Positions 22,728 to 26,840 are shown, counted from the first letter of the stretch. The stretch is DNA of 64,000 nucleotides from Acidimicrobiia bacterium (GCA_040289475.1 PSLF01000002.1:62001-126000); one strand, 5' to 3'. The notes: generated by a model not told the origin, from the sequence alone. Translations and numbers: made by a program.

Positions 22728-23227
22728 GCTGCCTCTATAGTCACGTTCCACTTTCTCACCCCCAAGTTGAATCTCTGCCGTTCTCGATCGAGAACGGCTC
22801 GGGCTTGGGCGAACCGAGGGGCGTCGGATGCAAGGCCGGCATCAAGGGCGTCCTGGGCGGCCCCGATCCAAATTTTGCCGGCGTCTGTGATTTCAGAAGC
22901 GATTTCGACCAGATTTTGGTGCATTAGAGGTAGAAGCTTTTCCATCTCACTCAACGTGTCACTTAGGGTTATGATACGGCTTGTTGCCGAGCCAGCAATG
23001 GAAGCGAATTCGCCGGTTATAAGAGCTTTGTTCAAATCATCGGTTAGGGCTGTAGAACTTTGGATGAAGCTGTCCGCGAGAGAGGAGAATTTGCGGCCTG
23101 CCTCCCTGGATGGGTCGTCTACTCGAGTCGGGTTCGAACAAGCGGAAAAAAAAGAACAAACCAACAACAAAATAGCGATACATCCTCGATAGAGTGGATT
23201 CGCAGCGGTTTCCCGCCCGATAATCAC
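22724..23227 (-). CDS. Putative lipoprotein of unknown function
   Basis: 167 residues. Hydrophobic N-terminal segment CIAILLLVCSFFSAC ends in a lipobox-like FSAC, so the mature form would be membrane-anchored. The rest is predicted helical, rich in Ala, Leu and Ser, with no recognised family. The GTG start overlaps the nfuA stop (GTGA) and its stop overlaps xseA (ATGA). It is thus locked between an Fe-S assembly gene and exonuclease VII by translational coupling. Confidence 0.75.
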   Translation of the reverse strand: MIIGRETAANPLYRGCIAILLLVCSFFSACSNPTRVDDPSREAGRKFSSLADSFIQSSTALTDDLNKALITGEFASIAGSATSRIITLSDTLSEMEKLLPLMHQNLVEIASEITDAGKIWIGAAQDALDAGLASDAPRFAQARAVLDRERQRFNLGVRKWNVTIEAA

Positions 23228-23868
23228 TTCTTGGCAGGTTCGTAGTAAGGGTTAGTACCGGCTGCGTGATCGGTGACGTCGACGATCGACTCGATTTCGG
23301 GGACAGCTTCTTTTATTGCAACTTCTATTCCCTGACTTAGGGTTACCTTTGCCAGTCCGCATCCTTGGCATCCGCCGCTCAGGCGTAGGTACGCAGTCGA
23401 CCCCTCGACGGCGACCAGATCAGCTCGTCCTCCATGCATTGCAATGGCAGGGTTGACGTTTTCGTCAAGTACTGCCTGTACGCGTTTGGCTAGATCACCG
23501 CCGACGAACTCCCACACATCGTTGGGGTTGTCGATGGTCAATCCTTCGTTGGGATCGTCAGACAGGTCGAGCACGGAGCCCTTTATCTTCGGAATGTCCT
23601 TTGTGCGGATGAGCACTGTTAGCCCGTCACAATCGATAGCGGTATCTTGTTCCGAGGCCGAAGAAGGATCGGCAAAAGACAAGTCATACGCGAAATCTCC
23701 GTCGCGGAGTCCATTGATTTCTATGCGAAGTGCAGCTTCAGGCGACTCTCCTGTGTTCTCTCTCACGCGGAGTATGCGCTCCATCGCCTTGGACGTTATC
23801 GTGAGAATTTTCTCCTCTAGCTCTTTACCCGCTTGTGCTGAGTCCACATTTTTCTCCGCTGTGGCCAT
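23224..23868 (-). CDS. nfuA: NifU-like Fe-S biogenesis protein (NfuA type)
   Basis: The C-terminal NifU domain is clear: DENVNPAIAMHGGRADLVAV and LRLSGGCQGCGLAKVTLSQG, with the CxxC that carries a transferable [4Fe-4S] cluster. The N-terminal part (about 20-110; RILRVRENTGESPEAALRIE and on) resembles the A-type/HesB fold without its cysteines, the same layout as NfuA. It likely delivers clusters to apo-enzymes; many Fe-S proteins (Lut, Kor, TtuA, radical SAM) lie in this window. First gene of the nfuA-lipoprotein-xseA-xseB operon. Confidence 0.92.
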   Translation of the reverse strand: MATAEKNVDSAQAGKELEEKILTITSKAMERILRVRENTGESPEAALRIEINGLRDGDFAYDLSFADPSSASEQDTAIDCDGLTVLIRTKDIPKIKGSVLDLSDDPNEGLTIDNPNDVWEFVGGDLAKRVQAVLDENVNPAIAMHGGRADLVAVEGSTAYLRLSGGCQGCGLAKVTLSQGIEVAIKEAVPEIESIVDVTDHAAGTNPYYEPAKK

Positions 23869-24009: not shown

Positions 24010-25302
24010 GTGAAAGGCATGAGCGCTGTGCTGCCAAGGTTCGATCGCCCACTCGTCATGGTCTTCTCATCTGAGACTTACCGTGCCTCGGCTTTTCTTG
24101 AGGCGGCCTCAAAACTGGGAGTGGAAGTCGTACTAGCTTGCGACGTGGACGAGGCTACTACAAAGCTTCTAGGATCCCGACTTGTCCAAGTAGACCTGTC
24201 CGATCCCGAGGGGGGGGCCCAACGTATCGTAGAAGCAGTTGAAGAAAGAGATCCGAGATCCGTTATCCCTCTCGACGAGGCTGCTGTTCCCTTGGCTGCC
24301 ATCGCATCAGGGCGACTGGGTACTACCTCCAATTCCGTTTCTGGTGTCTTGGCGACTAGGGACAAGGCGGCGCTTCGGAGGCGGATGTTTGAGGCGAACG
24401 TCGCTCAGCCCCGCTTTTTGATCGCTTTCGACCCTCAAGACGCTGTTCTAGACGAGGCCGGCGACAGGGTCGACTTTCCTTGCGTAGTGAAGCCGGCGGT
24501 CCTGTCGGCATCCACCGGAGTGATCCTGGCAGATTCTCCCGAAGCGCTGAGGCGAGCTGCTATAGAGGCGTATGAAATCCAGTTTCAACTGGCCCACCGG
24601 AGAGCGCCGTTGGTCGTAGAAGAGTTTCTACCCGGTAGGGAGATCGCAATAGAGGCAATTGTGGTCGGTGGTGACTTGGAAGTTCTGGCTGTCATAGACA
24701 AGCCCGATCCTCCTCGAGGGCCGTACTTTCCCGAGCGTATCTTGGTGACACCAGCCGATCTCGATGAAAAGACGTTGGAAGGAGTGTGCGAGCTTGTGAG
24801 CGCTGCGACGACAGCGCTGGGGATCGTCGATGGGCCTGTCCACGCAGAGATTAGGTGGGGAGACGATGAGCCGAAGCTTTTGGAGATCGCAGCACGGACG
24901 ATAGGGGGATTGTGCTCTAAGGCTTTGCTATTCGAGGCGGATGACAAAGAGTCCCTTGAAGAGGTGGTGCTTAGGCGGGCTTTAGGTGATTTGCGAGCTA
25001 CCCGACCTGTACTGACATACTCGGGCGTGGCGATGCTATACCCGGACATACCCGGGCGTATCGAGAAGGTGGAGGGAATCTCGGATGCCAAAGCCGTTCC
25101 CAACGTTTGGGCTGTCGACATAACTGTCCGCCGAGGGACTCGTGTCGAGCCTTTACCCAGAGGTAACCGGTATTTGGGGTTTATATTTGCCCGCGCTGAA
25201 AATCGCCAGGCATGCATCTCGGCATTGCGCGAAGCCGAGTCGTCTCTGCGATTTGTGATCGAGTCGCAACCGGTTCTCGCCCCTGAAGGAGCTGAGGGAT
25301 GA
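24010..25302 (+). CDS. ATP-grasp domain protein, partner of CCAEP-tail radical SAM
   Basis: 430 residues with the carbamoyl-phosphate-synthase-like ATP-grasp layout: N-terminal preATP-grasp Rossmann part to about 110, then FPCVVKPAVLSASTGVIL for ATP, LVVEEFLPGREIAIEAIVV, VHAEIRWGDDEPKLLEIAAR for metal ligands and GGLCSKALLFE. ATP-grasp enzymes join a carboxylate to an amine or thiol through an acyl phosphate. Start is GTG 24010 or ATG 24019. The stop overlaps the next ATG (ATGA at 25299), so it is translationally coupled to the radical SAM gene and likely works in the same pathway, possibly making or capping a peptide-like product. Confidence 0.88.
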   Translation: MKGMSAVLPRFDRPLVMVFSSETYRASAFLEAASKLGVEVVLACDVDEATTKLLGSRLVQVDLSDPEGGAQRIVEAVEERDPRSVIPLDEAAVPLAAIASGRLGTTSNSVSGVLATRDKAALRRRMFEANVAQPRFLIAFDPQDAVLDEAGDRVDFPCVVKPAVLSASTGVILADSPEALRRAAIEAYEIQFQLAHRRAPLVVEEFLPGREIAIEAIVVGGDLEVLAVIDKPDPPRGPYFPERILVTPADLDEKTLEGVCELVSAATTALGIVDGPVHAEIRWGDDEPKLLEIAARTIGGLCSKALLFEADDKESLEEVVLRRALGDLRATRPVLTYSGVAMLYPDIPGRIEKVEGISDAKAVPNVWAVDITVRRGTRVEPLPRGNRYLGFIFARAENRQACISALREAESSLRFVIESQPVLAPEGAEG

Positions 25303-26840
25303 ATATTCTCTTGGTTTCCGGCTACGAACTGGGCCATCAACCATACCACCTCGGTATCGCGGCTTCTCACCTCGTTGAAGACGGACACCGAGTCCGGTGC
25401 TTGGATCTGCAGGTGGAAGCGGCTGAGAACGAACTTTTCGAATGGGCGGATGCTGTGGGGATTTCGGTTCCCATGCATACTGCAGCACGGCTGGGAGTAG
25501 AGTTCGCTCGTACTCTGCATAGTAGCTATCCCGATATGCCCATCGTTTTCTATGGACTCTATGCACACGTGGCAGTAGACGCGTTCGTATCGGGCACGGC
25601 GGAGCTAGATAAGCGTTGTAGTGATCCTCCATTGCAGGTTGAAAAAGCCCGAGGTCTGGTAGTAGGGATTGCGGGCGAGTATCCCGCTGCTCTCAGGAGA
25701 TGGGCAGTATCTGTGGAGGAAAACGGCATAACGGGTGATTCTCCCGGACCATTAACTTCGCAAGTAACAGTCACCCTCGACCGCCAAAAGTCCATAGTGC
25801 CAGCGCGCCATCTCCTACCTTCCCTTGACAGGTACGCCCGTCTAGCTTGGGATGGGGAGGAACGGTTGGTCGGGTATGTTGAGGCCGCAACAGGGTGCTC
25901 GCACCGTTGTCGGCATTGCCCGGTGCCCATCGTGTATGCGGGGCGCATTAGGAAAGCGGCTATCGAAGCTGTCCTGGAAGATGTGGGGTGGCTAGTGGAG
26001 CATGGAGCTTCCCACATAACCTTCGGAGATCCGGACTTCTTGAACGCTCCTTCGTTTGCGTCGGAGCTCGTCTCCGAGCTCCACTCTGCCTTTCCCGGTA
26101 TCACCTTCGACTGCACAGCGAAGGTGGAGCATGTTTTGCGCTACGAGGACTTGTGGCAACAGCTGGCTGAGCGTGGTCTGCTCTTTGTTGTCTCGGCTTT
26201 CGAGACTACGAACTCCGAGGTGCTCAAAGTACTCGACAAAGGCCACTTGCCAGAGGATTTTCCTCGAGCTGTAACAATACTGCGCACCGCGGGCGTCGAG
26301 GTGCGCCCTTCCTTTTTGCCTTTTACTCCGTGGGCGCACAGTAGGGATCTCTTGAACATATTGGAGCTCTGCGTTGAGCTGGATTTAGTAGCGAACGTAG
26401 ATCCAGTGCAGTACTCTCTCAAGCTGCTGGTGCCTAAGGGCTCGCTTCTTCTCGAGACCCCGGAGCTCCGAGCTTATCTGGGAGACTACGACAGCGAAGC
26501 GATGTCATTCCGATGGAAGGCGCGGGATCCGGCGACAATCGTGCTCCAGCAGAAGGTAGCGGAGGTCGCTTCTAGGGCGGCCATGTCCAACCTGAGCTTG
26601 AGAGACACCTTGGAACAGATAGGTAAAGAGATCCTTCTCGCCTCTAAAGAAACTATGCCAGAAGACCCAGCTATAAAGATTTCCAGTACCGACTCCGATT
26701 TCTTGGCCGCTCTCCTTTCAGCCGCCGACCCGGAAAAAGTGAAGTCGCGACCAAAGCTTACGGAGGCGTGGTTTTGTTGCGCAGAGCCTACCTCGGCGCA
26801 GCTTCAATCAGCTTGCGGAACGGCACAGGTGTGCGCCTAG
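25299..26840 (+). CDS. B12-binding-type radical SAM protein with CCAEP tail
   Basis: 513 residues. The N-terminal 130 residues have the cobalamin-binding-like Rossmann fold (MNILLVSGYELGHQPYHLGI). The radical SAM cluster motif is GYVEAATGCSHRCRHCP with Cys200, Cys204 and Cys207 binding [4Fe-4S]. The barrel continues with HITFGDPDFLNAPSFASELV and VVSAFETTNSEVLKVLDKGH. The C-terminus reads AWFCCAEPTSAQLQSACGTA then QVCA: a Cys493-Cys494-Ala-Glu-Pro motif plus Cys506 and Cys512. I recall a family defined by a CUAEP/CCAEP tail, with selenocysteine in some members. Here Cys494 is TGC, so this is the cysteine form. The substrate is unknown. It overlaps the ATP-grasp gene by 4 bp. Confidence 0.87.
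   Translation: MNILLVSGYELGHQPYHLGIAASHLVEDGHRVRCLDLQVEAAENELFEWADAVGISVPMHTAARLGVEFARTLHSSYPDMPIVFYGLYAHVAVDAFVSGTAELDKRCSDPPLQVEKARGLVVGIAGEYPAALRRWAVSVEENGITGDSPGPLTSQVTVTLDRQKSIVPARHLLPSLDRYARLAWDGEERLVGYVEAATGCSHRCRHCPVPIVYAGRIRKAAIEAVLEDVGWLVEHGASHITFGDPDFLNAPSFASELVSELHSAFPGITFDCTAKVEHVLRYEDLWQQLAERGLLFVVSAFETTNSEVLKVLDKGHLPEDFPRAVTILRTAGVEVRPSFLPFTPWAHSRDLLNILELCVELDLVANVDPVQYSLKLLVPKGSLLLETPELRAYLGDYDSEAMSFRWKARDPATIVLQQKVAEVASRAAMSNLSLRDTLEQIGKEILLASKETMPEDPAIKISSTDSDFLAALLSAADPEKVKSRPKLTEAWFCCAEPTSAQLQSACGTAQVCA

Follow-up and report, generated by a model that had tools for sequence, protein, structure and literature searches.

The locus analysed here raises the question of what an ATP-grasp protein and a radical SAM protein encoded by overlapping genes might make together, in which order they would act and by which chemistry. 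The two genes are part of the window, i.e. the whole stretch of 64,000 nucleotides of Acidimicrobiia DNA that was analysed.

Layout of the gene pair

A first-pass annotation of the window had described two reading frames overlapping by ATGA, an arrangement that was confirmed at 24010-25302 and 25299-26840. The overlap of start and stop codon likely couples translation of the two genes. Apart from the GTG start given below, an in-frame ATG at 24019 is a possible alternative start of the ATP-grasp reading frame. The features of the locus are the following.

23224..23868, minus strand: NfuA-type Fe-S carrier (NifU domain; PF01106, 73.4 bits), divergently transcribed neighbour
24010..25302, plus strand: ATP-grasp ligase of the L-amino-acid-ligase (LAL) type, 430 aa, GTG start (Pfam, profile, orthologue alignment)
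25299..25302, plus strand: ATGA start/stop codon overlap of the ATP-grasp and radical SAM genes (sequence)
25299..26840, plus strand: radical SAM protein, 513 aa, ATG start (NF040546 match, family tree, AF2 model)
25299..25748, plus strand: Rossmann-like N-terminal domain of the radical SAM protein, resembling a B12-binding domain, without DxHxxG (Pfam, Foldseek)
25593..25652, plus strand: insertion of about 20 residues (residues ~99-118) specific to the radical SAM protein of the window (alignment A1)
25896..25919, plus strand: CxxxCxxC [4Fe-4S]/SAM motif, C200/C204/C207 (invariant in alignments A1 and A4)
26769..26789, plus strand: C-terminal WFCCAEP tail motif, W491-F-C493-C494-A-E-P497 (conservation in relatives)
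26778..26780, plus strand: TGC codon of the second tail Cys, C494 (equivalent codon TGA, Sec, in 31 distinct relatives)
26814..26834, plus strand: two more C-terminal Cys, C506 and C512 (not conserved)

A radical SAM protein within the CUAEP/CCAEP-tail family tree

The best model for the radical SAM protein was NF040546, the NCBIfam CUAEP/CCAEP-tail radical SAM (seleno)protein, which matched over the full length with 458.8 bits (E = 1.9e-137). The family to which the first-pass annotation had referred is real and already named by NCBI; the ligase, NfuA and DUF169 partners described below are absent from its name and description as returned. Besides full-length homology, the window protein has in common with the family the CxxxCxxC motif, found at C200/C204/C207 as previously noted, the WFC(C/U)AEP tail and the exchange of Sec and Cys. 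It differs by its insertion and by a score below the curated cut-off of 500 bits, which is passed in 23 of 148 genomes of the same class; proteins scoring below it share the same tail. In this survey of 148 genomes, 55 carry the family at E<1e-60, and G108, recognised only through a truncated match, was added as the 56th. The ArsL model NF040542 was the second NCBIfam match (248.3 bits, nearly full length) and the third reached only 38 bits, while the Pfam Radical_SAM match scored 47.4 bits. In the family tree, in which some inner nodes are weakly supported, the window protein is nested among NF040546 family members and ArsL lies outside as a separate clade with full support.

The AF2 model of the protein has a mean pLDDT of 92. 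Its tail region is ordered (pLDDT ~89-93) and values are lower, 70-75, at the insertion. The best PDB match in Foldseek was AprD4 (6fd2; E 4.6e-15), followed by OxsB, TsrM and MgmA. The best structural neighbours, the majority of them cobalamin methylases, share just 12-20% identity with the model. AprD4 has the Rossmann and radical SAM fold in common with the window protein at 14% identity. AprD4 is cobalamin-independent, its partner is the AprD3 reductase, unlike the partner of the system studied here, and we know of no C-C tail in it. The claim of a B12-type N-terminus therefore stands as a resemblance in fold but not as a domain assignment: Pfam B12-binding scored 19.0 bits against a cut-off of 32.1, DxHxxG is present in only 4 of 121 relatives, and AprD4 is the best structural neighbour. 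DxHxxG is also missing in many B12 radical SAM enzymes. Moreover, the GGxHxT-like loop is replaced by YGLYA (alignment A1).

Exchange of cysteine and selenocysteine in the tail

We compared the tails of 114 distinct proteins taken from the same class and, across many phyla, from 80 named loci, with duplicates removed. The pair reads C-C in 81 and C-UGA in 31, i.e. the motif is conserved in 112/114 relatives. Of the two others, L071 reads CCAAP and L131 has no motif match, probably owing to a frame or contig problem. Together with the E-value of the family match, this places the observation far beyond chance. Within the class the consensus LTE(S/P)W(F/Y)C(C/U)AEP is near-invariant, and no Cys of the family other than those of CxxxCxxC and the C-C tail is fully conserved. 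The additional C506 and C512 noted in the first-pass annotation do exist; as they are not conserved, we rejected them as part of the motif, and a role for them is unsupported.

That one tail Cys is selenocysteine in some genomes had been anticipated, and several observations agree with it. The UGA of relatives aligns exactly with codon 26778-26780 of the window (TGC), and a tRNA-Sec match of at least 59 bits was found in 12 of the 12 class genomes with a UGA tail. In the named set, the 20 UGA loci have hairpin potential around CAGTT/CAGGT 3′ of the UGA, typically GAGxGCCAGTTCGGCxCTC; the mean z of this SECIS-like hairpin was -1.6 at UGA loci versus -0.1 at Cys-Cys loci. The window protein itself is not a selenoprotein: its tail codon is TGC, and the best tRNA-Sec score in its own genome, 44.9, lies below the gathering score of 47, which fits its Cys-Cys tail. 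Mapped on the family tree, Cys and Sec were exchanged in 11 changes, and supported branches force 7 or more of these. The first-pass annotation took such an exchange as an argument for a redox role of the second Cys. Binding of a soft acceptor, by analogy with the ArsL tail, explains it equally well, so that a specifically redox role is not supported.

In Thermomicrobium roseum (L072:5935-7371, WP_012643191.1) the annotation stops at the in-frame UGA although AEP follows in frame, so that the selenoprotein end was missed.

A ligase of the L-amino-acid-ligase type

The ligation step predicted from the ATP-grasp partner is plausible, as this protein is of the amino-acid-ligase type: both ATP-grasp_4 (81.9 bits) and LAL_C2 (63.1 bits) scored above their Pfam cut-offs. 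When the family profile was compared with structures, BL00235 (3vot) was matched over its full length with 220 bits and BacD came next with 109. In addition to the two domains, the L-amino acid ligases BL00235, BacD and RizA have an E-x-(A/G)-x-R-x-x-G-G region in common with the window ligase. They differ from it in that the latter is distant in sequence, forms its own orthologous group and carries an invariant Cys after GGx; the region R-x-I-G-G-x-C is invariant across 20 aligned orthologues. BL00235 forms Met-Gly and Met-Met (PMC6920838).

A TGA in the ATP-grasp gene of genome G093 was rejected as a Sec codon, for it lies right at the beginning, ahead of the coding region. The gene pair was also found on a contig labelled as a Bifidobacterium breve MAG (L130, CAMDSG010000207.1). 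This contig is probably misbinned, since the ligase it encodes matches that of the same-class genome G004 almost exactly.

Co-occurrence of ligase and radical SAM gene

Within the class, the ATP-grasp gene occurs in 56/56 genomes with the radical SAM gene versus 15/92 others (Fisher p=3e-27), and in a phylum-wide sample of 297 genomes it accompanies the radical SAM gene in 21/22 cases versus 6/275 without it (p=8e-26), although these p-values overstate the association because related genomes were counted as independent. G167 was the sole genome of the phylum sample with a radical SAM gene and no detected ligase. Genome G177 contains two copies of each gene, and Thermogemmatispora is a culturable organism in which both genes were observed. 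Among the named loci, some of which are from the same organism as surveyed genomes and were deduplicated in the tail counts only, 49 of 80 have an ATP-grasp gene close to the radical SAM gene; the groups represented include Chloroflexota, KSB1, Nitrospirota, Ignavibacteriota, Acidobacteriota and Rokubacteria. The ligase gene may be upstream or downstream and on either strand. As gene order changes across phyla and proximity is kept, inherited order alone is no explanation, which argues for selection. Since the genes are unlinked in many other genomes, their co-occurrence is more than adjacency. Coupling of ligase and radical SAM gene is near certain, and because the pair co-occurs so consistently across bacterial phyla, the two genes almost certainly build one small molecule jointly. 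Neither of the outcomes that would have spoken against the first-pass reading, a tail that varies among orthologues or a missing ATP-grasp partner, was observed.

The coupling is asymmetric. In the class, no radical SAM gene was found without a ligase, whereas the radical SAM gene was lost repeatedly and the ligase stayed behind. Ligases lacking this partner are intact and turn up in separate parts of the ligase tree, with 11 changes, of which 9 or more are forced. Among the genomes concerned, G111 and G119 are less than 80% complete and may just miss the radical SAM gene, and the ligase of G078 is distant, perhaps non-orthologous. From presence and absence of the genes, it seems that the ligase either precedes the radical SAM enzyme or is useful by itself, and that the radical SAM step comes later and can be dispensed with; retention could also reflect a second ligase function. 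Streamlined genomes of about 1 Mb in the class (group f7) keep the gene pair, so that its function looks physiological rather than antibiotic.

In two loci of this group, L068 (7929-8969 and 10306-10812) and likewise L069, luciferase-like and flavin-reductase-like proteins flank the radical SAM gene. They were identified by eye from the sequence and have overlapping reading frames.

Further partners: an NfuA-type carrier and a DUF169 protein

Of the 80 named loci, 49 have a gene for an NfuA-type protein close to the radical SAM gene, and this gene adjoins the ligase gene also in genomes that encode the radical SAM protein at another place or lack it. The protein of the window scored 99.8 bits against TIGR03341, below the cut-off of 269, and is thus better termed NfuA-like than NfuA proper. 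In some other phyla, genes for a class-V aminotransferase (SufS-type) and an Fe-S assembly P protein (SufT-type) lie near the radical SAM gene.

A subtype of DUF169 proteins was present in 28/56 genomes with the radical SAM gene versus 1/92 others (p=1e-13); the subtype boundary (hits <100 bits) was set after the scores had been seen, and without it the counts are 28/56 versus 4/92 (p=8e-11). C60, H78, C81, C171 and C189 are invariant in this subtype (alignment A5). In the genome of the window, the DUF169 gene is encoded on another contig (G000:C22:6368-6979). Its model (pLDDT 86.8) gave no convincing PDB match, and the literature searched yielded no function for DUF169. Neighbours that unlinked ligases have, such as thiamine pyrophosphokinase, were dismissed as partners, as they look like local synteny within the class.

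Comparison with ArsL

Among characterised families, ArsL, the radical SAM enzyme of arsinothricin biosynthesis, is the only close one (248 bits versus 38 for the next). ArsL proteins from Priestia, Pseudomonas amygdali, Alicyclobacillus and Pantoea plasmids were aligned over their whole length with the window protein. The two families have the same architecture, many invariant residues and a vicinal pair of tail Cys in common. The Cys pair of the ArsL tail, RCCLKC, aligns with that of CCAEP, whereas the third ArsL Cys has no counterpart in CUAEP proteins. The window protein lacks the RCCLKC tail and scores below the curated ArsL cut-off of 450 bits. ArsL performs ACP transfer (PMC8552651; mechanistic work is cited in PMC12159101), and the radical SAM enzymes of this type named in PMC8552651 are Dph2 and ArsL. 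By analogy, an ArsL-type ACP transfer is the most likely but unproven candidate for the chemistry at our locus. Owing to the absence of the third tail Cys, acceptor or chemistry may differ from those of ArsL.

Arsenic, which as As(III) receives the ACP group of SAM in the ArsL reaction, is not favoured as a substrate here. In the class genomes, ArsM showed no significant association with the radical SAM gene (17/56 with versus 18/92 without; p=0.16). It is absent from the genome of the window, and there are no ars genes among the annotated recurrent neighbours. As ArsM does not co-occur, an ArsL-like arsenic pathway is not supported; an arsenic pathway independent of ArsM is possible.

A proposed pathway and its alternatives

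We tentatively propose, at somewhat less than an even chance, that the two enzymes catalyse consecutive steps of one small-molecule pathway, the ligase first and the radical SAM enzyme second, with an ArsL-type modification. In the first step, the ATP-grasp enzyme would link an amino acid with another one or with an amine, yielding a dipeptide-like compound. The radical SAM enzyme would then modify this compound, perhaps by an ArsL-type transfer. The NfuA-type neighbour may supply Fe-S clusters to the radical SAM enzyme, which in half of the genomes might be assisted by the Cys-rich DUF169 protein. The C-terminal Cys-(Cys/Sec) pair is predicted to reach the active site, where it could hold a soft acceptor or serve in thiol/selenol redox turnover.

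The steps might also run in reverse order, as in an arsinothricin-type pathway in which the radical SAM enzyme, working on arsenic or another soft element, makes a glutamate- or methionine-like amino acid derived from ACP and the ATP-grasp enzyme then couples that product with an amino acid, giving a peptide or a Trojan-horse compound. An ATP-grasp gene lies beside or near ArsL in 6/7 annotated ArsL plasmid loci, so enzymes of the ArsL type do recur together with ligases, and the preference of a BL00235-like ligase for Met, a 4-substituted 2-aminobutanoate (PMC6920838), would suit such a product. Persistence of the ligase in genomes without the radical SAM gene argues against this order, as do the lack of an ArsM association, the missing ArsM in the window genome and the missing ars neighbours. 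Furthermore, other ligases are closer to that of the window than those linked to ArsL, which score 66-86 bits, compared with up to 132 for plasmid ligases without a known link to ArsL. We regard the reverse order as rather unlikely.

The remaining alternatives keep the ligase product as substrate or concern the Fe-S chemistry. Canonical 5'-deoxyadenosyl radical chemistry, i.e. an AprD4-like dehydration, an epimerisation or similar, would agree with AprD4 as the best structural match, and a tail supplying electrons or H atoms, like the Cys-Sec tail of animal thioredoxin reductase, would fit both the vicinal C-(C/U) pair and its repeated Sec/Cys exchange. The closest sequence kin, ArsL, cleaves non-canonically, and we judge such chemistry unlikely. 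Methylation of the ligase product by a cobalamin-dependent radical SAM methylase is suggested by the B12-like N-terminal fold and by OxsB, TsrM and MgmA among the structural neighbours; it is improbable given the sub-cut-off B12-binding score, the lack of DxHxxG in 117/121 relatives and the YGLYA replacement. Least probable of all is a role in sulfur insertion or Fe-S maturation, with NfuA renewing a sacrificial cluster as it does for lipoyl synthase and the tail carrying sulfur or selenium: the frequent NfuA-type neighbour and the loci with SufT- and SufS-type genes speak for it, whereas one cluster motif and two vicinal tail Cys are not enough conserved ligands to hold another [4Fe-4S] cluster.

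On a broader scale, it is conceivable, if on the unlikely side, that LAL-type ligase, CUAEP-tail radical SAM enzyme (in many lineages a selenoprotein), NfuA-type carrier and DUF169 protein constitute a widespread physiological four-part module making an undescribed peptide-like metabolite or cofactor. In our incomplete coverage of the literature, we found no earlier description of the partner genes, the presence-absence coupling or its asymmetry. A search for CUAEP and RCCLKC returned no open-access literature, and the review text PMC13188914 does not contain NF040546. If true, the proposed ligase-first pathway would add a further widespread branch of ACP transfer, coupled to a peptide ligase, to the few such radical SAM enzymes known. 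It would point to a metabolite common to Actinomycetota, Chloroflexota, Nitrospirota, KSB1, Ignavibacteriota and others. With at least seven supported natural exchanges of Cys and Sec at a single position, the role of this residue can be tested directly, and ligase and DUF169 partners make up a defined set of genes for reconstitution.

Observations on ArsL operons and ArsM

Six ArsL operons (L073, L075, L076, L192, L193 and L194) encode an ATP-grasp protein together with a CobW-like GTPase, both outside the published arsQML set. ArsL operons with an ATP-grasp gene may make peptide derivatives. In six genomes of the survey (G055, G031, G114, G047, G095 and G106), matches to the ArsM family contain one in-frame TGA and may be selenoprotein variants of ArsM.
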